DNA of 64,000 bases from Methyloceanibacter sp. (GTDB taxonomy: Bacteria > Pseudomonadota > Alphaproteobacteria > Rhizobiales > Methyloligellaceae), in NCBI GenBank assembly GCA_014380485.1, contig JACMJU010000019.1, forward strand, positions 1-64,000, in the 5' to 3' direction. This document shows positions 2,389 through 20,481 of the stretch, one piece after another. A program made the position numbers and the translations under genes. The notes beneath the pieces are model-generated. The model was not told the DNA's origin, did not search any database, and was given only the letters and a program-made list of their open reading frames with translations. How positions within the stretch are numbered: position 1 is the first letter of the stretch; each line of letters starts with the position of its first letter.

Positions 2389-2487
2389 GGATTTGTGCCT
2401 GCGAGCGCGAGGCACGGCCGTTTCGGCGGCCCGGGCTTCGCCCTCGCTCCTTACAACGATGGCCGGGGCCTCGAACCATGAGCAGCG

Positions 2488-3372
2488 ATGACCGGAGCCC
2501 ATTCCGATAAAGAGAATCGTCCCATCCCGCCCCGCGCCGGCGTCGGGCTGAAGCCCGAGCATTGCCGCGACATCCTCGAAACAGCGCCCGACATCGGCTG
2601 GTTCGAGATCCATGCCGAGAACTACATGGGGGAGGGTGGGCCGCCCCACTATTATCTCAGCGCCATCCGCGAGCGCTACCCCGTTTCCCTGCACGGTGTC
2701 GGTCTCTCGATCGGCGGCAGTGCGCCCCTAGACCGGGAGCATCTTGGCCGCCTCAAGGCGCTCAACGCGCGCTATCGGCCCTCCCTGTTCTCGGAGCATC
2801 TCGCCTGGTCCAGCCATGACAACGTCTATCTCAACGATCTTCTACCGCTGCCCTACACCGAGGAGACGCTGGCGCGGGTGTGCGAGCATATCGACGAGGT
2901 GCAGGAGGCGCTCGGGCGGCGCATGCTGCTCGAGAATCCGTCCACCTATGTAGCCTTCGCCGATGCGGCGATGAGCGAGGTGGAGTTCCTGCGCGAGGTG
3001 GTGCGACGTACCGGCTGCGGGCTTCTGCTCGACGTCAACAATGTGTTCGTCCAGTCCGTCAATCACGGCTTCGACGCGGGCCCCTTCATCGATGATTTCC
3101 CGATCGAGCATGTGGGCGAGGTTCATCTTGGCGGCCATGCGGCCGACAGCGACGACGACGGCGCGACGCTTCTGATCGACGACCATGGGCATGAAGTGAC
3201 CGACGCCGTGTGGGACCTTTACGCCCATGCGCTCGCGCGCTCGGGCCCAAAGCCCACGCTTATCGAGTGGGACAACGACGTGCCGGCGTGGGAGGTCTTG
3301 TTCGCTGAGGCGAAGCGCGCGGATCGGATCATCGCCGACCGCCGGTCAAATCGCATCGCGGCCTGCCCATGA
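2488..3372 (+). CDS. DUF692 multinuclear non-heme iron oxidase (MNIO), BufB-like
   Basis: AGVGLKPEHCRDILE, WFEIHAENYMG, SLHGVGLSIGG, SEHLAW, LLENPSTYV, LLLDVNNVFV, VHLGGHA motifs of DUF692. Confidence 0.92.
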   Translation: MTGAHSDKENRPIPPRAGVGLKPEHCRDILETAPDIGWFEIHAENYMGEGGPPHYYLSAIRERYPVSLHGVGLSIGGSAPLDREHLGRLKALNARYRPSLFSEHLAWSSHDNVYLNDLLPLPYTEETLARVCEHIDEVQEALGRRMLLENPSTYVAFADAAMSEVEFLREVVRRTGCGLLLDVNNVFVQSVNHGFDAGPFIDDFPIEHVGEVHLGGHAADSDDDGATLLIDDHGHEVTDAVWDLYAHALARSGPKPTLIEWDNDVPAWEVLFAEAKRADRIIADRRSNRIAACP

Positions 3373-4142
3373 CCGAGTTTGCCGAGTTGCAGCGAGAGTT
3401 CGCCGGGGCCGTGCTCGATATTGAGGCCGCGGTGCCCGCCGAGGTCAGGCGCGAGTCGGGCGGTGTGCCGTCCCGCCGCTTCGCCGTCTATCGCAACAAT
3501 GTCTATGCCGGTCTGATCGGCGTGCTGGCCGGGCGGTTTCCGGTGGTGGCGCGGCTGGTCGGCAACGAATTCTTCCGCGCCTTGGCCCGCCTCTATATCG
3601 AGCGCGAACCGCCCTCATCAGCGGTTCTCCTCCGCTATGGTGCGAGCTTCCCGACCTTCATCGCGGAATTCGCCCCGGGCGCATCGGTGCCCTATCTCGC
3701 CGATATGGCCGCGCTCGAATGGGCGTGGCACAGCGCCTATCACGCGGCCGATGCCGCGCCGCTCTCACTCCAAGAGCTTGCAAGCGCGGTCGATCACGCC
3801 GCCGGCGCCGTGCTCATTTTGCATCCTTCGCTCGGCATTGTGCGCTCGCCCTATCCGATCGTGTCGATCTATGAACTCAACGCGCAAAGCGGCGCGGTCC
3901 CGCCGACGCAGGTGGCGGGGGCGGAGGATACGATGGTGGCAAGGCCCCGGCTCGAGGTTGAGATGCGCCGTCTGCCGGAGGGCGGTGCCCCGTTCATCCT
4001 CGCGCTGAAAGCGGGGAGGACGATCGGAGAGGCGTCCGCCGGCGCCTTGCAGGAGGCGCCCGGCTTCGACCTTCAGACCAATCTCACAGGGCTGATCGGA
4101 AGCGGCGCGATCGTCGCCCTTCGACCGGGCCCAGGCCGCTAA
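3369..4142 (+). CDS. DUF2063 (BufC-like) putative MNIO partner protein
   Basis: AELQREFAGAVLD... RRFAVYRNNVYAGLIGVLAGRFPVVARLVGNEFF; overlaps the DUF692 stop by 4 bp. Confidence 0.9.
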   Translation: MTEFAELQREFAGAVLDIEAAVPAEVRRESGGVPSRRFAVYRNNVYAGLIGVLAGRFPVVARLVGNEFFRALARLYIEREPPSSAVLLRYGASFPTFIAEFAPGASVPYLADMAALEWAWHSAYHAADAAPLSLQELASAVDHAAGAVLILHPSLGIVRSPYPIVSIYELNAQSGAVPPTQVAGAEDTMVARPRLEVEMRRLPEGGAPFILALKAGRTIGEASAGALQEAPGFDLQTNLTGLIGSGAIVALRPGPGR

Positions 4143-4272
4143 CAGGACGTTGCTCGGCGGCCGCGCATTAAGGCTCGCGCAAGTTGTGGGTGATAGGCTC
4201 AGCCATTGTCCCCAACGCGTGTTTTGCGTGAAGGGGGAAGCAGGTTCCTCTCCCAAGCACCTGCCTAGAGAG

Positions 4273-4304
4273 AAGGGCGCCCCCTCAGACGAGAGAGCGC
4301 CCTT
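4273..4304. terminator. Inverted repeat AAGGGCGC...GCGCCCTT between convergent genes
   Basis: Perfect 8-bp arms between the DUF2063 gene (+) and hsp20 (-); only modest T-richness after the stem. Confidence 0.45.
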
Positions 4305-4339
4305 CTTGTTGATCGTCCGATCTTCGCGTGACGCTGGCG

Positions 4340-4807
4340 TTAGGCCGCCTTGCTGTCGATGACCTTCGGCTTCTCGGCCTCGATCTTGGTGGCGATCGGG
4401 ATGGTACGCGGCTTCATGGCCTCGGGCAGCTCGCGCATGAGGTCGACATGCAGCAAGCCGTTCTCGAGCGCCGCGCCCTTCACCACAACATGATCGGCGA
4501 GCTGGAACCTGCGCTCGAAGCTGCGCGAAGCGATGCCGCGATGAAGGAATGTGGTGTCCTCCTGCTCGGTCCGCTTCTCGCCGCGAATGGCAAGAACATT
4601 CTCCTTCACCTCGATGGAGAGGTCGCGCTCGCCGAAGCCGGCGACGGCCATGCTGATACGATACTCGTTCTCGCCGATGCGCTCGATATTGTAGGGCGGG
4701 TAGCTCGGAGCCTCGCCCTCGAAACTGGTGAGCGTATCGAGCAACGAGCCGAGCCGGTCGAAGCCGATGGTGGAGCGGTAAAGCGGGGTAAGGTCAAAGT
4801 GCCTCAT
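4340..4807 (-). CDS. Small heat shock protein, Hsp20/IbpA family
   Basis: MRHFDLTPLYRSTIGFDRLGSLLDTLTS...YPPYNIERIGENEYRISMAVAGFGERDLSIEVKENVLAIRGEK. Confidence 0.93.
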   Translation of the reverse strand: MRHFDLTPLYRSTIGFDRLGSLLDTLTSFEGEAPSYPPYNIERIGENEYRISMAVAGFGERDLSIEVKENVLAIRGEKRTEQEDTTFLHRGIASRSFERRFQLADHVVVKGAALENGLLHVDLMRELPEAMKPRTIPIATKIEAEKPKVIDSKAA

Positions 4808-4893
4808 GACACATCCTCCTTGAGAAGCGATATGGTGGTGCCCGCTCAAGTCCTTGAGCCGGGCGGATGGCGCGAAGCCATAAAGCCTTCGCC
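4808..4893 (-). promoter_or_regulatory. ROSE-like RNA thermometer in the hsp20 5'UTR (candidate)
   Basis: RNA reads AUCGCUUCUCAAGGAGGAU just before the ATG (4831-4813), matching the ROSE UYGCU...AGGAGGAU arrangement; two further hairpins upstream (GCTCAAG/CTTGAGC at 4844-4859; GGCGAAG/CTTCGCGCC at about 4869-4893). Confidence 0.65.
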
Positions 4894-5112
4894 CCGATCA
4901 CGGATATGGGTGCGGCAAGCGAGCGCTTCAAGAGGTCTAGTGTGCTGAAAATAAAGGAGGAATTACGATATCGGTGGGGCCCCTTCGGCCGCGTCGGCAC
5001 CCGATCGTCGGCCCGCGTGAACGGCGTGGCGAGCCCGGTCGGCGCTGCTATAAGAGGCGCTCGCTTAGGCGCCTTACGGCGGCGCTCGCGCTAAAGGGGC
5101 ACGCTCGCTTCG

Positions 5113-6072
5113 ATGGCTCTCATCGCGACACCCAAGAACCCGATCCCGCTCGGCGCTTCGACCGGGTATATCGAGCCGCGCAAGGGCTTGCGCTTGCGCT
5201 TCGCAAGCTGGCAGTCGGTGCTGCGCGAGCGGCGCGGCACGGTCTGCATCCTTCCCGGCCGCGCCGAGTTCATCGAGAAATATTTCGAGGTCGTGGGTGA
5301 GCTTCGCCGCCGCGGCTTCGCCGTGGCGTTGCTCGATTGGCGCGGGCAGGGGGGGTCGAGCCGGCTCACCAGGAACCCGCTCAAAGGGCATATCAACGAT
5401 TTCGCCGAGTACGAGGAAGACCTCGCTTACTTTATGAAGGCGGTGGTGCTTCCCGATTGTCCGGCGCCCTATTTCGCGCTCGGCAACTCGATGGCCGCCA
5501 TGGTGCTGTTCAGGGCGGCGACCAGACGCGGTTGCTGGTTCACCCGCATGGTCATGACCGCACCCATGGTGCGGATCGAGGGGCTGCCCATGTCGCACCG
5601 GATGTGCGGCCAGTTCGCCGACGGGCTGGCGCTGCTCGGCTTCGGCAAGAGCGCGGTGCCTGGCGACAAGACCAAGTACCGTCACGATCCCCCGTTCGAG
5701 GGCAATCGTCTCACCTCCGACCGCGAGCGCTTCGCTCGCAATCAATCGGTGCTGGAGGCCGCGCCCGAGCTCGCCATCGACGCACCGACCATCGGCTGGC
5801 TGAAAGCTGCGCTTGACACGATCGAAGCGGTCAACAGCGAACGGTTCGCGCCACGCATCAGGGTGCCAGTGCTGATGCTCGTGGCAGGCGACGACCAGAT
5901 CGTGTCGAGCAAAGCGGTGGAGGGCCTCGCCATTCGGCTTAGAGCCGGCTCGCAGATCGTCCTCAGGGGGTCCCGCCACGAAATTATGCAAGAGCGGGAC
6001 AGCATTCGCGAGCAGTTCTGGGCGGCGTTCGACGCCTTCGTTCACGGCGTCGCCATGAGCAAGGCGAGCTAG
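5113..6072 (+). CDS. Alpha/beta hydrolase, lysophospholipase (PldB-like)
   Basis: RGTVCILPGRAEFIEKYFEVVGELRRRGFAVALLDWRGQGGSSR ... ALGNSMAAM ... SRHEIMQERD. Confidence 0.85.
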   Translation: MALIATPKNPIPLGASTGYIEPRKGLRLRFASWQSVLRERRGTVCILPGRAEFIEKYFEVVGELRRRGFAVALLDWRGQGGSSRLTRNPLKGHINDFAEYEEDLAYFMKAVVLPDCPAPYFALGNSMAAMVLFRAATRRGCWFTRMVMTAPMVRIEGLPMSHRMCGQFADGLALLGFGKSAVPGDKTKYRHDPPFEGNRLTSDRERFARNQSVLEAAPELAIDAPTIGWLKAALDTIEAVNSERFAPRIRVPVLMLVAGDDQIVSSKAVEGLAIRLRAGSQIVLRGSRHEIMQERDSIREQFWAAFDAFVHGVAMSKAS

Positions 6073-6177
6073 CGCGTGGACTCACAAGGGCGGTTGGACG
6101 CAAGTTACGAACGACCGAATTCAGTCGGTGAGTACCCCCCAAGACCGCACCCGGGGGACGAGCAGGGCCGCTGGGAC

Positions 6178-7584
6178 CTACAGGGTCACTTCCAGCGTGC
6201 AAGCGAGACCGTCGGGATCGAAATCAAACTGTGCCTGGCCTAACGCCCCCTCCATCGCACCCTGGATAAGCCGCCAGCCAAATCCTCCGCGCTCCGGTGG
6301 TGTAACGCTGGGACCACCGCTCTCCCGCCAAAAGACTGTCGCCTTGTTGGACTGGGCATCGAATTCCCAAAAAATCCTCACGCAACCAACTCCATTCGAC
6401 AAGGCCCCGTATTTCACCGCGTTCGTGGCGAGCTCGTGCAGCGCCATTGCCAACAGTAACGCCCGGTTCGCACTGAGCCAAATTCCATCCGACCCTTCGG
6501 TTACGATGCGCTCGCGGTGTTCTTCGCGGAAAGCCTCTAACGCCCGCGCCACGACGGAGTCGAGTGGGACCCGATCCCAGCTTTCGGCTGTCAGCAGATC
6601 GTGCGCATTGGCGAGAGCGTGCAGGCGCGCGATAAACGCCTGTTTTTCTTCGGCCGGTGCGCTATGCAATGTTTGCGTGGCGAGCGCCTGCACTGTCGCC
6701 AAAGAATTTTTGATGCGATGTTTCATCTCGCCGGCCAAGAGCCTCTCCTGCTCCTGAGCCCGTTTGCGTTCGGAGATGTCGTGGGCAATTTTCGATGCGC
6801 CGACGATCATGCCCCGGGCATCCTTCACCGGCGATACGGTCAGCGAAATGTTGACCAGAGTTCCATCCTTGCGACGGCGGAGAGTATCGTAATGGTCGAC
6901 GCGCTCCCCGCGACGGATGCGCTGAAGAATTTCGGGCTCCTCATCCACGCGGTCCGACGGAATCAGAATCGTGACGGGCTGACCTACAGCCTCCTCGGCC
7001 GAATAGCCGAACAGAAGCTCCGCTCCGGCATTCCAGCTCATGATGATTCCGTTGAGGTCCTTGCTGACAATGGCGTCGTCGGACGACTCCACGATCGATG
7101 CCAGAAGCTGGGCAGCGTTTTCGGCGCGTTTGCGATCGGTGATGTCGACCAGCAAATTCACCGCGCCAATCATCCTGCCCGATGAATCAAAAAGAGGGGT
7201 TGGAAAAGGCATGAACGGCACACGGACGCCATCGGGGCGCTCCGCTATCGCTTCCATGCCGTGGACCGGCCGGCCTTGCTTCACGGCAATCGCCATTGGG
7301 CACTCCCCGAGCTCCATGGCTCTTCCGTCCGGCCAGAAAAGTTTCCACGAACCGCACCACTCGGTGTTGCCCAACTCGGGGCGCCAGCCCCAGAGAGAAG
7401 CGGCCGCTTCGTTGTAATAAGTGATGCACCCTGCGGCGTCGGTCACGTAGACCGCGGCGGGCAATACGTCGAGCAGTTGGCGAAAGAAATCGTCACCTCG
7501 CGCCAGACCCTCACCGGCTTTCACAAGAAAGTCGAGTTGCGGGTGGTCTTGGCCCGTCGGGAGGCTAACGACCGTGTCTGTCAA
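6178..7584 (-). CDS. PAS-PAS sensor histidine kinase of the HWE family
   Basis: Two PAS domains; H-box RLLAGEMKHRIKNSLATVQALATQTL; ALHELATNAVKYGALS. Confidence 0.9.
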   Translation of the reverse strand: MTDTVVSLPTGQDHPQLDFLVKAGEGLARGDDFFRQLLDVLPAAVYVTDAAGCITYYNEAAASLWGWRPELGNTEWCGSWKLFWPDGRAMELGECPMAIAVKQGRPVHGMEAIAERPDGVRVPFMPFPTPLFDSSGRMIGAVNLLVDITDRKRAENAAQLLASIVESSDDAIVSKDLNGIIMSWNAGAELLFGYSAEEAVGQPVTILIPSDRVDEEPEILQRIRRGERVDHYDTLRRRKDGTLVNISLTVSPVKDARGMIVGASKIAHDISERKRAQEQERLLAGEMKHRIKNSLATVQALATQTLHSAPAEEKQAFIARLHALANAHDLLTAESWDRVPLDSVVARALEAFREEHRERIVTEGSDGIWLSANRALLLAMALHELATNAVKYGALSNGVGCVRIFWEFDAQSNKATVFWRESGGPSVTPPERGGFGWRLIQGAMEGALGQAQFDFDPDGLACTLEVTL

Positions 7585-7597
7585 CGAATAGCCCTCC

Positions 7598-7813
7598 TCA
7601 GCGAAAGCGATGCGGCCGGAGTAACGTTATCCCGTCAGGCCGTTCCCAATCAACCTGCACGAAGGGGATCACGCCAGTCTGCAGGCTTTCACAGTGCGGG
7701 CACTCATGGCTCCGCAGTGCCATGCCTTCGAGCGTTCCGTGACGCTCAATTCCAACACACGCGCATTTGGGTCCGCATCTACGACAATGGCAAACCGGTG
7801 TATTGGGGTTCAA
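7598..7813 (-). CDS. Small Cys-rich zinc-finger-like protein (TTG start)
   Basis: CHCRRCGPKCACVGIERHGTLEGMALRSHECPHCESLQTGVIPF; paired CxxC-like motifs in a 71-aa ORF. Confidence 0.5.
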   Translation of the reverse strand: MNPNTPVCHCRRCGPKCACVGIERHGTLEGMALRSHECPHCESLQTGVIPFVQVDWERPDGITLLRPHRFR

Positions 7814-8154
7814 AATGTACGGTTGTGGACATAAATCAATATTCTTTTCGTTTCGTTTATTGTCAAGACGCTCTATTACGACGTACTTTTACTTCTTTCG
7901 GCTAAGTGACATCTTGAGTATATTGCGACTTTAGAGCCGTAGGCAGTGCCCCCAAACGCAAGGTCGAACGCGACTAAGCGGACACCGCAGCTGGTCGCCC
8001 GATTAAGGGCCCAATGGGTCCGTGCGGGGGGCAGCGCACGCCTTTCCCCAGCGCTTGGCGCAGGTCTCGCGTCCATCCAAAATTCGTGCCCGGCCGCTTG
8101 GTCTCGGTCGGGCCCCTCAGCCCGAGTGGGGGCGTGAGGGGCAGCCTTCCGGGC

Positions 8155-8784
8155 TCAGCGGCGCGACGATTTCTTCTTTTTTGTGGGCCGCTTTTTGATG
8201 GGACTAGTCTTGCGTCTCACGGTGGAGCTTGACGCGGCCGCGCGGCGTGCGGGCGCCCGCGAAGCCGTCCGTCCGGTTGCGCGCCGATTGACACCACCTT
8301 CAGCCATACTACTCAGCTTCTTGTCGGCAGCCTTCTCCTCTTTGAGGTTGGCGTTGAGTAGTCTCACGATGCCGTCATGGCCGAGTTCTTGTGCCCAGGC
8401 AATCAGCGTGCCGTAACGGGAGATCTCGTAGTGCTCTACCGCTTGCGCGCTGCCGATAATCGCGGCGTCGAGCACCTTCTTGTCGTCGACTTCGCCGGCG
8501 ACCTCATCAGCCTCTTTGATTAAGCCATCGATGGCCGGGCAATCGACGCCTTTCGGCGTCCGGCCGAGCTTCTCAAACACCTGCTCGAGGCGCGTGACTT
8601 GGATCTCGGTCTCGCGCAAATGGTTGCGCAAACCTGCTCCAAGCTCGCGACTCGTCGCTCTATCGATCAATTTCGGCAGAGCCTTAACGATTTGATTCTC
8701 GGCGTAATAGACATCCTGCAGGGTGTGCAGGAAGAGGTCGTCCATCGATTTGATGTCTTTGCTGAACAGCCCCATGGGTTGCAT
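8155..8784 (-). CDS. YciE/YciF-family ferritin-like protein (DUF892) with Lys/Arg-rich C-terminal tail
   Basis: MDDLFLHTLQDVYYAENQIVKALPKLIDRA ... AVEHYEISRYGTLIAWAQELG; tail RRATGRTASRAPARRAAASSSTVRRKTSPIKKRPTKKKKSSRR. Confidence 0.88.
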   Translation of the reverse strand: MQPMGLFSKDIKSMDDLFLHTLQDVYYAENQIVKALPKLIDRATSRELGAGLRNHLRETEIQVTRLEQVFEKLGRTPKGVDCPAIDGLIKEADEVAGEVDDKKVLDAAIIGSAQAVEHYEISRYGTLIAWAQELGHDGIVRLLNANLKEEKAADKKLSSMAEGGVNRRATGRTASRAPARRAAASSSTVRRKTSPIKKRPTKKKKSSRR

Positions 8785-8938
8785 CCTTCCTGATCGGTTG
8801 AGAACGAACGTGGCGCCGCAGGGTTATTGGCGTTGCGGTGCTTAACTCCTTAAGCGCGCAAGGAGGGCACAGGTTCCCGCAGGCGAGATTTGCCTGGCGA
8901 GGCAACCAAGAAACGCGCGGCGGGACTGGGGCTCCGCC

Positions 8939-10576
8939 TTACCAATCAACTTGTGCACGCATCCCGAACCCCCTGATCACGGCGCCATCGAAGCCGAAGA
9001 TGCTTGTTCCAGGCGGCACCGTTGTATTGGTGACGGTTGCCGGGATCGTCGTGACTGGGTAGTCGCCGAGGTCCGATTCAGAGTAATCGAACATCAGGCG
9101 CACATACTCGTTGAGATACCAATTGGCGCCCACGGTCCAGGTTTTCATCTCGCCGCAAAGTCCGATGCTCGGCGCTATCAAGGTCACGGTGCTCGATGCG
9201 CTAAGACCCGGGTAAAGCTGCGTGTTGCGGCATCCGCCGGCAGCATTGAAGGCGTTGTCGCTCAGATCGAGGACGTTATATTTGCCAACGATCTGCAACG
9301 CCCCCCAACCGCCGCGTTCGCCCCACCGCACGGGATTGTCGATTTTCGGACGGTCCCACTTGCCCTCCTGGTTATAGGTCTTATGGCCGCCGAAGAACCA
9401 GCTTCCGTCCACATACCAACCGGCGTATTCGGGGTTTGGAACGCCGGAAAATGGATTGGGAGTGGTGGTTAGCCGTCCAGGAGCGGGCGGATTGCTTCGT
9501 ATGAAGGCGCCGCTCGGCAGCTCCACATCGGTGTGGCCGTATTCGCCTTGCAGCGAGAAAGGTCCCCACAGCGCTGCCGCCTCGAGGCCCCAAAATGTGT
9601 CCTCATCGACGATCCGCCCCGTATTGACGGCGAAGTTGGTCATGTGCAGATCAGCGCCGCGGGCCCGGTACTGAAAGAAGGCCTGATCGTTGCCGGTTTG
9701 CCGGTTTCTCACGCTCGCCCCGAAATGCAAGACCTGCGGGACGCCGTTGGTTTCCCGGTTGATCGGCGCGACGGTAGCGCGGGCGGCGAAGGTCAAGTTC
9801 TCATCGCCGATAAATCCCGGAAAGAGCGGCGTGTTGGCTATCGACCCGGTGGATTGCGACCCGCCCTCGCCGAAAATGCCGGCCGCCAACCCGAAATGAT
9901 CGGTCCAATAGGCCGTCATGAAGCCAATGTGCCGGTCAAGCTCCCAGGCATTGATGAAGGCTGCGCGCTCCAAGGTATCGATATAAAGCTCGCTGGTAAT
10001 GTTTTCGAACGAGTTGGGGGTCTTGAAGTTGCCGACGCGAAAATAGATCGGCGTGTCGGCAAGTTTCACGCCCTGGTATTGCAGATAAGCATCCCTGACA
10101 CGCGTATCGTCGTTGGCGAAATCAACCTCGACAATGTATTTCACGTCGTAATACACGACGCCTTCCATGCCGAGACGAGCGCGCCTGATCTCGGTCGCCG
10201 AGAGATCGGGGAAGCTTGTAATGCGCTTGTCCTGGTCGGCGTGTTCGTACTCGGCCTCGACGCGGCCTCGAAGCTTCAACTTGAACTTGCCGTTGGCGCT
10301 GGAGAATTCCGGCGCGCCCTTCCACTTTACTTTCAAGTCGAGATCGCTCTTGCCGGAATCTGCCGCCGCCGGTTTCGCCGTAGCGGCTTGCGCCTTGGCG
10401 TCCGCGACCTGCTTCTGCAACTCTTCGATTGTTGCCTTCAGATCATCGATTTGGCTTTGAACGGACTGCAGGTCCTGCGCCTTGGCCTCCGAGATGCAGA
10501 TCGCCAAGACACCACACGCGCCGGCGAGCAGATAACGATGAACCTTGTTTAGTCCCCACATCATGTCCCCCTCCAT
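8939..10576 (-). CDS. Phosphate-selective porin O/P-like outer-membrane protein with N-terminal coiled coil
   Basis: Signal peptide, LQSVQSQIDDLKATIEELQKQVADAKAQ, then KLKLRGRVEAEYEHAD...ATEIRRARLGMEGVVYYDVKYIVEVDFAND; aromatic C-terminus. Confidence 0.85.
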   Translation of the reverse strand: MEGDMMWGLNKVHRYLLAGACGVLAICISEAKAQDLQSVQSQIDDLKATIEELQKQVADAKAQAATAKPAAADSGKSDLDLKVKWKGAPEFSSANGKFKLKLRGRVEAEYEHADQDKRITSFPDLSATEIRRARLGMEGVVYYDVKYIVEVDFANDDTRVRDAYLQYQGVKLADTPIYFRVGNFKTPNSFENITSELYIDTLERAAFINAWELDRHIGFMTAYWTDHFGLAAGIFGEGGSQSTGSIANTPLFPGFIGDENLTFAARATVAPINRETNGVPQVLHFGASVRNRQTGNDQAFFQYRARGADLHMTNFAVNTGRIVDEDTFWGLEAAALWGPFSLQGEYGHTDVELPSGAFIRSNPPAPGRLTTTPNPFSGVPNPEYAGWYVDGSWFFGGHKTYNQEGKWDRPKIDNPVRWGERGGWGALQIVGKYNVLDLSDNAFNAAGGCRNTQLYPGLSASSTVTLIAPSIGLCGEMKTWTVGANWYLNEYVRLMFDYSESDLGDYPVTTIPATVTNTTVPPGTSIFGFDGAVIRGFGMRAQVDW

Positions 10577-10868
10577 TTAGGTAAATTGAACCGTCCCCTT
10601 CTTTGCGGTCTTCAAGCCGCTCTTGAGTCACGCACGCGGATTCGTAGGCGCAGAACGGCGAGCTCCGCCGCACGCTCACGTGAGGTACGCGCGAAGCTGT
10701 ATTCCTGCGTTTCACGCCGAAAGCCCCCGCTCTATCCACAGAATATAGCGACCCCGGCCTTAGAGCTGACAGCAGATTATTCGGAGTTAGGTCGAAGGCT
10801 GCCGGGGGTGTAGTGCGGCGAGCACACCGCGCTTCATCCGTAGCGTGCTGCGGCCTGCAACGTGCCTC

Positions 10869-11660
10869 CTACCCGACCTTGCCTTGTACCGAAAAGCCTT
10901 GCGCTTCGAATGCGGTCGCAGCCTCGGACGACAACAGAAAATCGAGGAATTTGCGCGCCTCCGGCTTTGCGGAAGCGGTCAGTGCGACCGGGTAGAGAAT
11001 CTTGGGATGGCTGTTCTCGGGAAAGGTGCCGACGACGCGGACCGCCTGCTCGGACTTGGCATCGGTCCCGTAAACGATGCCGAGAGGGGCCTCGCCCCTG
11101 GCGACGAAGACGAGAGCCGCGCGAACATTCTCCGCCTGCGCGACACGGGGGGATACTGCATCCCACACCCCGAGATAAGTAAGCGCGGCCTTACCGTACT
11201 TCCCTGCAGGCACGGAATCGACGCTTGCCATTGCAAGCTTGCCGTCGGAGCCGAGAGCCTGGAGCAGGGGAAAATTCTTTTCAATCGAGAGCGAGACGGT
11301 GGAGTCTTTGGGCGCAATCAAGACCAGCGTGTTGCCGAGCAACGTGTGGCGCGAAGCGATTTCGATCAGCGTCCTTTCTTGCAGATAGTCCATCCAGTCG
11401 AGATCGGCCGAAAAGAAGATATCGGCCGGCGCGCCTGCTTCGATCTGCTTGGCGAGCGCCGAAGAGGCGGCATAGCTGATGGTGACCTTGTCTCCGGTCT
11501 TCGCCTGGTAAAGCTTGGCGGCATCGTCGAGCGCGTTCTTGAGACTTGCGGCTGCGAACACAGTGATGTCGGCCGCCTGCGCCGCCGTGGCCAAAAGAGG
11601 CGCGGCTAGAAAACCCAGAATTAGTTTCAGGATGCCGCGCCGGGACGTGTTGACGGACAT
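10869..11660 (-). CDS. modA: Molybdate ABC transporter substrate-binding protein
   Basis: ADITVFAAASLKNALDDAAKLYQAKTGDKVTISYAASSALAKQIEAGAPADIFFSADLDWMDYL. Confidence 0.93.
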   Translation of the reverse strand: MSVNTSRRGILKLILGFLAAPLLATAAQAADITVFAAASLKNALDDAAKLYQAKTGDKVTISYAASSALAKQIEAGAPADIFFSADLDWMDYLQERTLIEIASRHTLLGNTLVLIAPKDSTVSLSIEKNFPLLQALGSDGKLAMASVDSVPAGKYGKAALTYLGVWDAVSPRVAQAENVRAALVFVARGEAPLGIVYGTDAKSEQAVRVVGTFPENSHPKILYPVALTASAKPEARKFLDFLLSSEAATAFEAQGFSVQGKVG

Positions 11661-11682
11661 TGTCGCCCTCTTTCAAACCCAG

Positions 11683-11710
11683 AGCGATATATCGGTATGG
11701 AAATATCGCT
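11683..11710. promoter_or_regulatory. Palindrome AGCGATAT-N12-ATATCGCT in the modA/modB intergenic region (Mo-box-like)
   Basis: Perfect 8-bp inverted repeat; the core CGATATATCGGTATGGAAATATCG is 24 nt and resembles published Mo-boxes. Confidence 0.65.
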
Positions 11711-11758
11711 TTCGCAAGCCGGTTTCTCGATGGCATAAAGGCGACTGCTCGTTACCAA

Positions 11759-12478
11759 GTGAATTCGTGGATCGCGCCCGTCGTGTTCGCACTGACGCCC
11801 GAGGAATGGACTGCCATCGAGCTCTCGCTGCGCGTCGCCACGGTTGCGACAGCGGCGAGTTTGCCGATCGGCATTCTGGTCGCGCTTATCCTGGCCCGCG
11901 GCCGGTTCTTCGGACGCAGCCTGCTCAACGCCCTGGTGCTGGTTCCGTTGGTGCTGCCGCCCGTGGTTACGGGTTACGTGCTTTTGCTGGCGTTCGGCCG
12001 GCAGGGTCCACTCGGCCGCTGGTTCGCCGAACATCTCGGTATTGTCTTCGGCTTCCGCTGGACCGGAGCGGCGCTGGCCTGCGCCGTCATGGGATTTCCC
12101 CTGATGGTCCGCGCCATCCAGCTGTCAATCGAGGCGGTTGACAGAAAGCTCGAGCAGGCCGCGACCACGCTCGGTGCAAACAGATTGTGGGTCTTGGCCA
12201 CGGTTACTCTGCCTCTGGTCACGCCAGGAATCCTGGCCGGCGCCATTCTCGCCTTCGCCCGGGCCATGGGTGAGTTCGGTGCAACCATAACTTTCGTTTC
12301 CAATATTCCCGGAGAGACCCAGACGCTGCCCACGCTTATCTACACCTTCACGCAGGTGCCGGGAGGCGATGCGGCCGCGCTCCGTCTTACGATTATTTCG
12401 CTGGTGATCTCCCTTGCCGCCGTGCTCGCCTCCGAAGCCATTGCGCAGCGTGTCAGTCGGAGGCTCGAGGCGGCATGA
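11759..12478 (+). CDS. modB: Molybdate ABC transporter permease (GTG start likely; ORF open from 11660)
   Basis: LTPEEWTAIELSLRVATVATAASLPIGILVALILARGRFFGRSLLNALVLVPLVLPPVVTGYVLLLAFG. Confidence 0.92.
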   Translation: MNSWIAPVVFALTPEEWTAIELSLRVATVATAASLPIGILVALILARGRFFGRSLLNALVLVPLVLPPVVTGYVLLLAFGRQGPLGRWFAEHLGIVFGFRWTGAALACAVMGFPLMVRAIQLSIEAVDRKLEQAATTLGANRLWVLATVTLPLVTPGILAGAILAFARAMGEFGATITFVSNIPGETQTLPTLIYTFTQVPGGDAAALRLTIISLVISLAAVLASEAIAQRVSRRLEAA

Positions 12479-13122
12479 GCGTCGAGGTCTCCGCGCAAAC
12501 AATCCTTGGCGACTTCGTCCTCGATGCAAGCTTCAAGAGCGATAGCAGGGTGACAGGCATTTTCGGCCCGTCGGGGTCGGGCAAAACGAGCGTCATGAAT
12601 GTCATCGCCGGACTCCTTCGCCCGGCGCGCGGTCGTGTCGTTGTTGACGATGTCGTTCTGCTGGATACGGAAGCGGGGATATTTCTCCCCACACATCGAC
12701 GGCGTATCGGTTACGTATTTCAGGAAAGCCGCCTGTTTCCTCATCTTTCGGTAAAGGGCAATTTGCTGTACGGACGATTCTTCACACCGCGTCCAAGTCG
12801 TTACGCCTCTTTTGACGAGGTCGTAAGCCTCCTCGATCTTGACGCATTGCTGACCCGCGGAACCTACGCTCTGTCGGGGGGCGAAAGACAGCGCGTCGCG
12901 ATCGGGCGTGCCCTCCTTGCATCCCCACGGCTCTTGCTTATGGACGAGCCGCTGTCATCGCTCGATGAGAAGCGAAAAGAGGAGGTCATACCTTTTCTCG
13001 AGCGCCTGCGAGACCAAGCGCGGGTGCCGATCGTCTATGTGAGTCACGTCTTTTCCGAGATCGACCGGCTGTCGGGAAAGGTCGTCAGAATGTCCGACGG
13101 ACAGGTGCTCGATCCGCTCTAG
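12475..13122 (+). CDS. modC: Molybdate ABC transporter ATP-binding protein, short form without TOBE/MOP domain
   Basis: IFGPSGSGKTSVMNVIAGLLRPARG ... HRRRIGYVFQESRLFPHLSVKGNLLYG ... LSGGERQRVAIGRALLASPRLLLMDEPLSSLDEKRK; stops at 215 aa; 4-bp overlap with modB. Confidence 0.9.
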   Translation: MSVEVSAQTILGDFVLDASFKSDSRVTGIFGPSGSGKTSVMNVIAGLLRPARGRVVVDDVVLLDTEAGIFLPTHRRRIGYVFQESRLFPHLSVKGNLLYGRFFTPRPSRYASFDEVVSLLDLDALLTRGTYALSGGERQRVAIGRALLASPRLLLMDEPLSSLDEKRKEEVIPFLERLRDQARVPIVYVSHVFSEIDRLSGKVVRMSDGQVLDPL

Positions 13123-13145
13123 CGAGCCAAGTGAGAGTTACCGGC

Positions 13146-15805: not shown

Positions 15806-15881
15806 GGGCGCGTAGCTCAGCGGTATGAGCACTGCGTTGACATCGCAGGGGTCACTGGTTCGATCCCAGTCGCGCCCACCA
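15806..15881 (+). tRNA. tRNA-Val (anticodon GAC)
   Basis: GGGCGCG...CGCGCCC acceptor stem, anticodon stem-loop CTGCG-TTGACAT-CGCAG, T-arm CTGG-TTCGATC-CCAG, encoded CCA. Confidence 0.96.
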
Positions 15882-15940
15882 CTTAACGCTTCGATTTTCA
15901 GTTCTGCTGGGGTGGCACGGAACCAGGCGATTGGTGCAAT

Positions 15941-18900
15941 ATGGCAGCATGGCTGGACGTGCGAGCGCAACGTCGGGGGATACGCCATCCCAGCCGAGCA
16001 GGGACTTGCCCCCTGCGGGGGGACACGGTCTGCGTTGGCGCCATTCTTAAGGACGAGGATGCCTTCGTCGAAGAGTGGGTTGCCTATCACCGCATCCTTG
16101 GGGTTGACCACTTCTATCTCTACGACAATGACCCCCGCCAACCGTTAAGCGAGATACTTGCTCGGCACGGGGACTACGTAACCGTGCGCCCATGGCTCAT
16201 CGGCCATGACAACCCTTCCCATCGAGGTCGTACGAAGCAGATCAAGGCGTATACCCATTGCCTTGAAAACGGTGCCGGTCGTTACGACTGGGTGGGGTTC
16301 ATCGATTGCGATGAGTTTATCGCGCTTGAAGAGCACCGCGACCTCAAGGCGTTTTTGGCTGAGTTCGAGGGCCATGACTCAATCGCGCTGAACTGGCATG
16401 TGTTCGGTCACAACGGATACTACGACGATCCTCCGGGCCTCGTCATCGAATGCCTGACGCGTCGGATGAAAGAACCCCGAGCGATGACGAAGAGCTTGTC
16501 GAGGCCGGGAGCCATCGTTTCCTTCCAAAATGCGCATCTCTGTCGCTTGATGGCGGGATGCACGTGCGTGGATGCAAACAAACAGCCATACCGCGACGCG
16601 CTTTACCCAGGCAAAACCCGCGTCGCACGCATCAATCACTATCAATGCCGCTCATTTACGAATTGGATGCGCAAGCCTGAACGCGGTGAGGTGGGAACCT
16701 TTGCGGAGGAGCCAGCCAATGCTTGGCGTTTCAGCGAGGAGGGCTGCTTACGTCAGTTTGTAGGCCAGATTGCGGTAGACAAGAATGAGCACGTCGACAT
16801 GTCCATGTTGCGGCACGTGGAGCCCGTCAGACGCTACCTCAGCCAGTTGCGGAGCGGGAACGAGGTTGGGCAAAAGTCCATTGTTGATTTGGCGGCGACA
16901 GCGACGCTGAACAAAGAACGTCAGTTACGCCCGCCAAGGAACCGACAACTCGATGATTCCGTCCTCAAAAAGTTGATGAGGTCGCTTCGATCAACGTTCC
17001 ATTCGTTCCTATTGCTGCCAGGTGACGCACGACACAGTCCACGGTTCCTTTGGTTCCTGCTCAGCGGCAAGTTAACCCAAGCCGTGGCGATGATTGCCGG
17101 TCGTCGGCGGAGAAACGCCATTGTTTTGGCACGAGCGATCTCCAAGACGCAAAACTGGCCGGAAGCTGTTCGGCGGTGGCAGCAAGTTATCGATCAGTTC
17201 GGCGAAGATGCTTCCCCGGCGGCGTTCGCCGGATTGTCGAGGGCGCATCAGGGTTGTGGCAATTTAGACGCGGCTGAAGCCACTGTTCAGCAAGGTCGGG
17301 CCAAGTACCCAACGGACATCGGTCTGGCTATTAGGTGGGCCGGCGTCGCCGCCTCTCACAAGCATTGGCAAGAGGCTGAGCGTCGCTCGCGAACGATTCT
17401 GGATCATGCAAATGGTGACGTACCGGCCCAAGCGTACCTGCAGTTGAGCGCGTCCCTCCGTCGACAAGACAAGATCGAGGAAGCGGAGGAATTCCTTCGG
17501 CAGGGTCTGAGCAAGCACCCGGCAGATGTTCGGTTGGCTAAGAGCTACGTCGAAGTCGCTAAGCGTTTGCCGGATGCAGCCACGCGTTGGCAAGCAATCC
17601 TCGATCAGCTGAATGGCAGTTGCCCCACGTTGTTTTACTTGCTGGCGAGCCGTGCTCATCGCGAGCAGGGAGACCTAAACGAAGCTGCGAGGGTCGTTCG
17701 CCAAGGCTTAGCCAACGAACCCCGCGAGATGAGGCTGCTTACGGAGCACATCGAAATTGCATGGGCTTGTCGGGACTGGGGGCAAGTTGCTGAAATCTCT
17801 GATGTGGCCATGAGAATCATCGAAACATCATCGAGCCGTTCCATCAACGACCGTGTCTTTGCTACTGTTTGCCATGGACTGATGAAGGGCCAAAATTATG
17901 ATCGGGTGATTGCCGCCGTTCAGCATGCGAAGCGCCGCAAAGGCGACAGCAGGCTACTCTTGTCAATTGAAGGTCTTGCATACCTGCGTTCGTCCCAGAC
18001 GGAATTTGCCCGGGCCCACAGGAACCAAGTTTGGCAGAAAGCCAAAAAAGACGGGCGCCTCGCCCTTCAGCCTGCCCCAGCGCCGCCGTACGCGCACGCC
18101 CCGAATCTGGCTTTCTTCAAGTCTCTCTCCCGGACCGACGAGCTCAGCCGAAAGTCCGGAGATCCCCGGTTTTGCGTGTACACCGCACTATTCGGTGAAT
18201 ACGACGATCTTCGATCTCCAGCATATGTGCCCGCCGGACTGAACTTCATCTGCTTTTCAGATAGAGCCCGTGACGTTGCGGGGTGGGATGTCCGTGTCGT
18301 CGATCAAGGACCAGAAAGCCCGGCCGCGAAGAGCCGGCTGCTAAAACTTCTACCGTACGATTACCTCGAGGATTACGACTGCTCACTCTATATCGACGCC
18401 AACGTCATTTTTTTGGCTGATCCGCTTGTCGTCTATCGTCGCTGGTTGAAAGGCAAATCCTTCGTCGCCTGGAGCCACCCGGAGCGTGCCGGTGTTTACG
18501 AAGAGATAGAAGCAATACTTGTTAATTTCCGTCACGCTCCGGACGGTCTCATCGACCAATACCTCCACTTCCGTCAGCAGAAAGTTCCGGACCAGACGGG
18601 ACTTGTCGAAGCTTTGTTCCTTTGGCGGGATCATCGAGACGCCGCTATCCGGAAGCTCATGGAGGAATGGTGGGAAACCCTTAGGCGCTTCAAGTGCCAC
18701 CGCGATCAGCCCGCTCTGGGATACCTTATGTGGCGAGACGGGATCCGCCCCGATGTGCTGCCGGCCTATCTCGGCACAAGCCGCGACAACGATTTCTTCC
18801 GCAAATTACCGCACAGAAAGACGGCGCTCGAGGTTGAGCTGGAAAATGTCAAGCCGCGCCGTCCGGTTAAAACTCAGGCCGGCGTTCGCGCCAGTGCGAA

Positions 18901-19813
18901 GGCGACAAACTGGTCGATGAATTCCGCGCAGCCAACCGTTCCACGCTTGACTTGGGTTTGCCGTCATGCGTTCCGGAGCAGCGCCTCCACTGTCATGCGT
19001 GGCCAGCAGCTATCCGAAATGGCGCGGCGTCTTCTTGCCGACGTGGAGGTCAGCTACGTAGACGAGACCCAACTTGGTGCGCAATCCGGGTCGGTGCTCG
19101 TTCTGACCAAGGGCTTTTTGAAAGGGGTGACGCTCGACGATCTTTCCGAGTTGAAGGAGCGAGGGAACATAATCTGCGCCGACCCTATCGACGACCCGGT
19201 ACGGGATGAACTTCTCGATTGCATCGACGTTTACATTGCCGCATCCATGACGCAATTCATCCACTATTCCAAGCAGTACGCCGACACCGATAAGTTGGTG
19301 CACTTAGTAACGCATCATTCCGATCCTCGATTGAGCGGGATTAAAGGGCCGGATGATCGCTGCAGGATCGGCTACTTCGGCGAAATCGCCAACGCCCGTT
19401 ACGTCAACGAATTGCAGGACACGATTAATTTTTGTCTCGTCGACACTGCGACCGCAAACGCAACCTGGATACCTAAACTGCGCGAATGCAATGTGCATTA
19501 CGCACTGCGCAAAGCGCGGCGTATCGATGGCTTTAAGCCATTCCTTAAGGGATTCACGGCCGCGAGTTGCCGATCCAACATTATTGTCCCCCGAGACGAG
19601 AGCGACGCTCGCTACTATTTGGGCTCCGACTATCCATTCATCCTCAAGGATGAATCGTTGAACGCCGTCCTGGAAATGATTGAGCATGCGAAGTCGTCCT
19701 TCGCGGGGGCTGAGTGGCGTCGGGGCTTGGAAATAATGGAGTCGGTGCGGCAGAGATGCGATCCCACACAAATCGCAAGCCAACTCAAGGCACTTCTTGC
19801 TCGCTGCCGTTGA
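15941..19813 (+). CDS. Giant multi-module glycosyltransferase: GT92/DUF23-like + TPR + DUF616-like + C-terminal GT-B-like module
   Basis: VCVGAILKDEDAFVEEWVAYHRILGVDHFYLYDND...WVGFIDCDEFI (GT92-like); TPR-like repeats about aa 395-720; FCVYTALFGEYDDLRSP...CFSDRA...SLYIDANVIF (DUF616-like); RGQQLSEMARRLLADVEVSYVDE...IGYFGEIANARYV (GT-B-like). Confidence 0.8.
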   Translation: MAAWLDVRAQRRGIRHPSRAGTCPLRGDTVCVGAILKDEDAFVEEWVAYHRILGVDHFYLYDNDPRQPLSEILARHGDYVTVRPWLIGHDNPSHRGRTKQIKAYTHCLENGAGRYDWVGFIDCDEFIALEEHRDLKAFLAEFEGHDSIALNWHVFGHNGYYDDPPGLVIECLTRRMKEPRAMTKSLSRPGAIVSFQNAHLCRLMAGCTCVDANKQPYRDALYPGKTRVARINHYQCRSFTNWMRKPERGEVGTFAEEPANAWRFSEEGCLRQFVGQIAVDKNEHVDMSMLRHVEPVRRYLSQLRSGNEVGQKSIVDLAATATLNKERQLRPPRNRQLDDSVLKKLMRSLRSTFHSFLLLPGDARHSPRFLWFLLSGKLTQAVAMIAGRRRRNAIVLARAISKTQNWPEAVRRWQQVIDQFGEDASPAAFAGLSRAHQGCGNLDAAEATVQQGRAKYPTDIGLAIRWAGVAASHKHWQEAERRSRTILDHANGDVPAQAYLQLSASLRRQDKIEEAEEFLRQGLSKHPADVRLAKSYVEVAKRLPDAATRWQAILDQLNGSCPTLFYLLASRAHREQGDLNEAARVVRQGLANEPREMRLLTEHIEIAWACRDWGQVAEISDVAMRIIETSSSRSINDRVFATVCHGLMKGQNYDRVIAAVQHAKRRKGDSRLLLSIEGLAYLRSSQTEFARAHRNQVWQKAKKDGRLALQPAPAPPYAHAPNLAFFKSLSRTDELSRKSGDPRFCVYTALFGEYDDLRSPAYVPAGLNFICFSDRARDVAGWDVRVVDQGPESPAAKSRLLKLLPYDYLEDYDCSLYIDANVIFLADPLVVYRRWLKGKSFVAWSHPERAGVYEEIEAILVNFRHAPDGLIDQYLHFRQQKVPDQTGLVEALFLWRDHRDAAIRKLMEEWWETLRRFKCHRDQPALGYLMWRDGIRPDVLPAYLGTSRDNDFFRKLPHRKTALEVELENVKPRRPVKTQAGVRASAKATNWSMNSAQPTVPRLTWVCRHAFRSSASTVMRGQQLSEMARRLLADVEVSYVDETQLGAQSGSVLVLTKGFLKGVTLDDLSELKERGNIICADPIDDPVRDELLDCIDVYIAASMTQFIHYSKQYADTDKLVHLVTHHSDPRLSGIKGPDDRCRIGYFGEIANARYVNELQDTINFCLVDTATANATWIPKLRECNVHYALRKARRIDGFKPFLKGFTAASCRSNIIVPRDESDARYYLGSDYPFILKDESLNAVLEMIEHAKSSFAGAEWRRGLEIMESVRQRCDPTQIASQLKALLARCR

Positions 19814-20046
19814 CCCTACCCAAACAGAGACAGGCATTTCGAGAACGTTGGCAGGCTGCCGCTAGCCTTCCGCCGCCCTCGCTCGGCCATGTTGACGCTC
19901 TGGTAACGTTCCAGGCGCTGTAATTACCCGCGCGCCACGATGCTGCCTCCAGGCAATGGTAGCCTCATGCTGCACCGTGGCCGCTCGTTGGAACCGCCAT
20001 TCTGGCCTTCACGTTTCAAATCGGCCAATACGAAAGGGACCCTCCC

Positions 20047-20364
20047 ATGCGTGCTCCAGGTTTGATCCTCTCCGTTCTAGGCTTTGTCGCGCTGATGGTT
20101 GTCGCGCCCAACCTGGTCAAGGCGCAGCCGAGCGTGGCGCCTTTGGCGCTTGGCCAAACCAGCGAAGGCGAGGCGGAGGATGTCGGCTATCGGTACCGGC
20201 GAAATCGCTACGCTCGCCCGTATTATCGGCCCTACTATCGGCCCTACTATCAGCCGTACTACCGGCCGTATGCCTATTACCAGCCTTACTATTATCGGCC
20301 GTACAATCCCTACTACTATCGGCCCTACTACCGTCCGGGTATCAGTCTCTGGTTCGGCTTCTAA
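20047..20364 (+). CDS. Secreted Tyr/Pro/Arg-rich low-complexity protein with YRPYY repeats
   Basis: Signal peptide MRAPGLILSVLGFVALMVVAPNLVKA then (YYRP)n: RPYYRPYYRPYYQPYYRPYAYYQPYYYRPYNPYYYRPYYRPG. Confidence 0.72.
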   Translation: MRAPGLILSVLGFVALMVVAPNLVKAQPSVAPLALGQTSEGEAEDVGYRYRRNRYARPYYRPYYRPYYQPYYRPYAYYQPYYYRPYNPYYYRPYYRPGISLWFGF

Positions 20365-20481
20365 GCTCGGCCCGCCGGCTCGCCGCCGCAGGGGAATCGT
20401 TTCCCGTCCCGCCGGGGAACGCTGCGGTCATCACGCCTAAAACGCTGAGACGCCCGGCGATCCGAGCCTAAGGACGCGCGC

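Follow-up and report, generated by a model that had tools for sequence, protein, structure and literature searches.

A long open reading frame downstream of tRNA-Val

The window analyzed here, a 64,000-nucleotide stretch of Methyloceanibacter DNA, carries a tRNA-Val (GAC) gene at positions 15806 to 15881 that is followed, after a gap of 59 bases, by a single open frame running from an ATG at 15941 to a stop codon at 19811-19813. Both genes, and all modules and motifs of the encoded protein described below, lie on the + strand. The ORF (15941-19813) encodes 1290 amino acids with no internal stops, in agreement with the initial annotation, which had described one continuous ORF starting about 60 bp past the tRNA. 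An in-frame stop at 15884 precedes the ATG. The start codon is the sole doubtful detail of this observation: the first 28 codons have codon-position GC resembling that of non-coding DNA (GC2 0.68, GC3 0.64) and precede the conserved first strand of the GT92 fold discussed below, and no ATG, GTG, or TTG start lies nearer to that domain than codon 7. No promoter above chance was seen for this ORF.

The gene had also been described as less GC-biased than its surroundings, and the codon-position profile bears this out. With the genes of the window as the reference set, its GC3 of 0.64 is the lowest of all, and the roughly 50 other ORFs average 0.79 (standard deviation 0.05). Because GC3 is low in each module (0.61-0.68), the whole gene is of one compositional origin. 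Upstream neighbors are CpdR, whose presence near the tRNA had been proposed and is confirmed by an NCBIfam equivalog match above cut-off, a HisN-type phosphatase, and ModB/ModC; DUF1428 and GST genes follow downstream. No further polysaccharide genes were identified among these neighbors.

Relatives diverge right past the 3′ end of the tRNA, which marks a conserved insertion site. Fifteen of the 16 other genomes of the genus carry this tRNA-Val or a related copy, and in 14 of these the upstream flank is conserved as well. In G009 (locus L056), the DUF1428 gene lies about 110 bp past the tRNA, and therefore the window holds about 4.6 kb of extra DNA; comparison with G009 and G015 places this segment at 15882 to 20481, with approximate ends. 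In G015 (L066), which is the nearest relative and is 88% identical upstream, the tRNA is followed by different DNA of about 2 kb. In G012 (L058), the same site is occupied by an element (2396-10513) with a tyrosine integrase and a type ISP/IIG restriction-methylation gene, and a 64-base repeat of the tRNA-Val is present at its far end. Sites that are empty or different in relatives, together with the G012 integrase and tRNA repeat, support the earlier suggestion that this tRNA-Val is an integration hot spot. The window segment itself has no integrase, and its matches to the tRNA extend over only 10 bases, which is about chance level, so an integrated element bounded by an att repeat was rejected. 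PADLOC returned no match, and a defense role was rejected on that basis. The same segment also includes a 105-aa ORF rich in Tyr, Pro, and Arg (20047-20364, +) with a signal-like start and the repeat run YRPYYRPYY; it has no Pfam match and is unmatched in 12 loci from relatives.

Four modules in one polypeptide

The initial annotation assigned four modules to the protein, and all four are recovered: GT92, TPR, and DUF616 by Pfam and the GT-B module by predicted structure. Three transferase folds are found rather than one. The N-terminal GT92 / Glyco_tranf_2_4 module (aa 29-236; 16025-16648) matches PF01697 with 80.4 bits against a curated cut-off of 23 (E 2e-22), and its homology extends to about aa 330. 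Its DxDEF motif (D122, D124, E125, F126; 16304-16318) is invariant in 22 of 22 GT92 homologs, and K184, H199, H233, and Y234, invariant in the same alignment, are likewise present. The DNxSxD motif is changed, with P65 and Q67 replacing S and D. A TPR region follows at about aa 385-700 (17093-18040), where Pfam finds three TPR_14 stretches in mid-protein (E 1e-12), the repeats spanning about aa 397-700.

The third module, TOD1_MUCI70 (DUF616; 18137-18844), is matched by PF04765 at aa 775-931 (E 2e-5) with a score of 24.4 bits, which exceeds the cut-off of 21.4 marginally; the nearest relative, L076, scores 61.3. An AlphaFold model from 15 sequences (pLDDT 91.8, pTM 0.89) predicts a GT-A fold, and GT6-type transferases, among them galactosyl- and blood-group transferases of GT-A fold, make up its 50 best PDB structure matches (E about 1e-7, TM about 0.5). 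This likeness is at the level of fold, as a PDB sequence profile search gave no GT6 match. By analogy with GT6, the module is predicted to be retaining. A DxD-like site is seen at D-A-N (aa 819-821; 18395-18403), whose first Asp (aa 819) does not vary among the 15 aligned sequences. Our literature search found no papers on the function of bacterial DUF616 proteins. The plant DUF616 protein MUCI70 has rhamnogalacturonan galacturonosyltransferase activity (PMC10576798), which lends support to a genuine transferase role for DUF616, although TOD1, which has the same domain, was reported to be a ceramidase (PMC4309442). The plant proteins MUCI70/RGGAT1 and TOD1 resemble our protein in PF04765, but consist of this domain alone.

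The last 290 residues (18941-19810) match nothing in Pfam or NCBIfam. Their AlphaFold model, built from 25 sequences (pLDDT 95, pTM 0.91), predicts a GT-B fold, the fold of GT4 enzymes. The best PDB structure matches are SenB, Gtf3/GtfC, and GT4-type enzymes, with E values of 1e-8 to 1e-6 and TM scores mostly of 0.6-0.69. By structure comparison, these enzymes have the GT-B fold in common with the modeled module, whereas sequence identity is only 10-14%. When PDB sequences were searched with the entire 1290-aa chain, a GT-B profile, or a DUF616 profile, no convincing homolog emerged. The family has an invariant signature, K-P-x-x-K-x-F, represented here by KPFLKGF (19535-19555), of which K199, P200, K203, and F205 (module numbering) are invariant in 25 homologs. 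In contrast to GT4 enzymes, it lacks a conserved Glu pair: no Glu occurs among the invariant or nearly invariant columns of the 25 members, which leaves the family without the EX7E motif of GT4. This GT-B family of about 300 aa, for which Pfam has no model, is a candidate for a new glycosyltransferase family.

The DUF616 and GT-B modules recur with other partners

The architecture is not widespread. No second genome with the full module order emerged from 16 other genomes of the genus, 13 further genomes of the family, 397 others in an order sample, or 384 others in a class sample. The full combination is therefore not found elsewhere in our searches, and it recombines module types that are already known. 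Scanning genome contigs with the whole protein gave no match, whereas an alignment of the GT-B module did. With this module as the query, 23 genome loci were recovered; in a phylum sample it occurs in 3 of 399 genomes, including the source genome, and its distribution is rare. An origin of the whole gene from a virus or plasmid was also considered and rejected, as no phage, viral-contig, or plasmid record has this architecture. Such records hold only single GT92 or DUF616 modules and, on viral contigs, two GT-B modules that stand alone.

The DUF616 and GT-B modules are fused in five other genomes: Salaquimonas (L076), Azomonas (L078), Prosthecomicrobium (L084), Ruegeria (L080), and G098, which are Alphaproteobacteria and one gammaproteobacterium. 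The Prosthecomicrobium, Salaquimonas, Azomonas, and Ruegeria proteins have these two modules at the C-terminus, arranged as in the window protein, at 30-48% identity, with the Salaquimonas GT-B module 48% identical to that of the window protein. The N-terminal parts differ. Where our protein has GT92 and TPR, Salaquimonas, Prosthecomicrobium, and G098 have NPDV-type repeats (recognized by eye, as they have no Pfam model), Azomonas has RgpF plus NPDV repeats, and Ruegeria has a methyltransferase. At L077 and L083, the GT-B module follows NPDV repeats without DUF616, and L077 also has RgpF. Most of the remaining GT-B loci are single-module genes, about 300 aa in length, from Rhodobacteraceae and Acetobacteraceae; loci of the stand-alone kind are L079-L082, L085-L098, L102, and L103, two of them on viral contigs. 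DUF616 is elsewhere also joined to GT2, an FkbM methyltransferase, or a sulfotransferase-like region. Loci L143 (3363-4850, -) and L142 (2349-4358, -) carry, respectively, DUF616 with a sulfotransferase-like region and an NPDV repeats-DUF616-GT2 protein adjoining a KpsE-like ORF, the KpsE and sulfotransferase labels having been assigned by eye.

The unfused parts also occur side by side. A GT92 gene and an RgpF-DUF616 gene overlap in G1092, and behind them come epimerase-like, TupA-like ATP-grasp/GT61, and aminotransferase-like genes. The RgpF-DUF616-GT-B gene of Azomonas precedes genes for an epimerase, a Glyco_tranf_2_4 protein (25% identical to the window GT92 module over 107 residues), and a UDP-glucose-type dehydrogenase. 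Because these parts adjoin in polysaccharide-type clusters, a joint role in polysaccharide synthesis is supported. At L076 (4697-8151), a metalloprotease-like ORF, so labeled by eye, and an ABC transporter adjoin the Salaquimonas homolog and perhaps constitute a type I secretion system.

Comparison with known multi-domain transferases

In multi-GT polymerases, one module forms each linkage (PMC11231755), and WsaE is a trifunctional enzyme of S-layer glycan synthesis (PMC2943079). Like the window protein, WbdA, WbbM, WbbB, and WsaE (PMC11231755, PMC2943079) carry several GT modules, two or three, on a single polypeptide, and in these enzymes each module is responsible for one linkage. However, their GT families are different, some carry a coiled coil or methyltransferase where our protein has TPR, and their genes reside within glycan clusters with ABC exporters. 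Group 2 capsule polymerases are built from GT-A or GT-B, TagF-like, and TPR parts with independent catalytic domains, and the TPR region of Cps1B mediates oligomerization and is dispensable for activity (PMC5974469). The TagF-like representatives Cps1B, CslB, and Cps7D (PMC5974469) likewise link a GT-A or GT-B module with another catalytic module and with about 400 aa of TPR. In those polymerases, TPR is at an end and accompanies two catalytic modules, whereas the window protein has it in the middle among three, and Pfam finds no TagF-like phosphotransferase module in the 1290-aa protein. On our best reading, the protein would work by analogy with WbdA, WbbB, and WsaE or the TPR-bearing capsule polymerases, while belonging to none of these groups.

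Proposed function and alternatives

We consider it probable, though well short of assured, that this horizontally acquired gene encodes a multi-domain glycosyltransferase by which two or three successive sugars are added to a surface glycan. Its foreign origin is shown by the GC3 value, the absence of the gene from the 16 genus and 13 family genomes, and the empty sites. The enzyme, which is probably cytosolic, might operate as follows. The GT92 GT-A module would transfer one sugar onto a growing surface glycan, and the DUF616 GT-A and C-terminal GT-B modules would extend that glycan by one sugar apiece, such that a single polypeptide makes two or three successive linkages. The TPR region might serve as a spacer between modules or as a dock for partners such as an exporter. 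Catalysis, the order of the modules, the donor sugars, and the polysaccharide product are matters that we infer.

Several facts count against this proposal, namely the changed DNxSxD motif, the DUF616 score near its cut-off, the absent EX7E motif, the solitary setting without polysaccharide neighbors, the uncertain start codon, the lack of a promoter above chance, and the source genome, a MAG of 146 contigs with 86% completeness. The first three would also be expected if just one or two modules are active and the rest are degenerate and bind acceptors or partners, in which case one sugar would be added and there would be no assembly line. We regard this as a serious though clearly less likely possibility, given that the GT92 DxD is intact, the DUF616 and GT-B motifs are kept here as in relatives, and all three transferase folds are well supported. 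Less likely again, the gene might be a recently captured passenger of the tRNA-Val insertion that is poorly expressed or decaying and possibly cut at its 5′ end. The non-coding look of its first 28 codons, the absence of a better start, its isolation, the lowest GC3 in the window, and the lack of a visible promoter would all fit this history, whereas 1290 codons free of stops, retained catalytic-site motifs, and a GT92 domain that is whole from its first strand on argue against it.

Alternatively, as in enzymes of the O-GlcNAc type, the TPR region might recognize a protein acceptor on which the modules build a short glycan, as in serine-rich repeat protein glycosylation. The Gtf3/GtfC enzymes of that pathway are among the best structural matches of the GT-B module, and dGT1 provides a precedent for two fused transferases that act sequentially on a protein (PMC5063993). 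However, the Gtf3/GtfC likeness is one of fold at the low identity given above, no candidate acceptor or secretion genes were identified near the gene, and relatives are placed with nucleotide-sugar and polysaccharide genes. Because of these neighbors of the relatives, we favor a surface polysaccharide, and protein glycosylation seems improbable. A chimera, in which separate genes were joined during assembly of the MAG, is very improbable. The number of contigs and the single occurrence of the full architecture could be cited in its favor, but all modules share one codon-position pattern and a low GC, other genomes have DUF616 fused to GT-B in this order, and the two flanks are syntenic with the genus.

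If the multi-domain transferase reading is correct, the order of sugars in a glycan would be fixed by one gene, as multi-domain glycosyltransferases allow. A few enzyme assays could assign function to several uncharacterized proteins, including the DUF616 and GT-B pair and the GT-B family without a Pfam model. A more speculative proposal, which we consider rather unlikely as a whole, is that DUF616 and GT-B form a portable cassette of two enzymes, which always makes one particular pair of sugar linkages and has moved among scaffolds (TPR, NPDV repeats, RgpF, and methyltransferase). Under this proposal, the C-terminal domain would found a new GT-B family without EX7E, and addition of GT92 would have given a single polypeptide that is a complete polymerase for three linkages.

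The location of a glycan gene at a tRNA-Val insertion hot spot also suggests how surfaces could plausibly change from strain to strain. Elsewhere in the window, a 7-kb stretch that includes modB/modC (6078-13145) is missing in G001 and G008, where its flanks are contiguous. Its GC3 is also low (0.66-0.73), and it is probably a second variable region.
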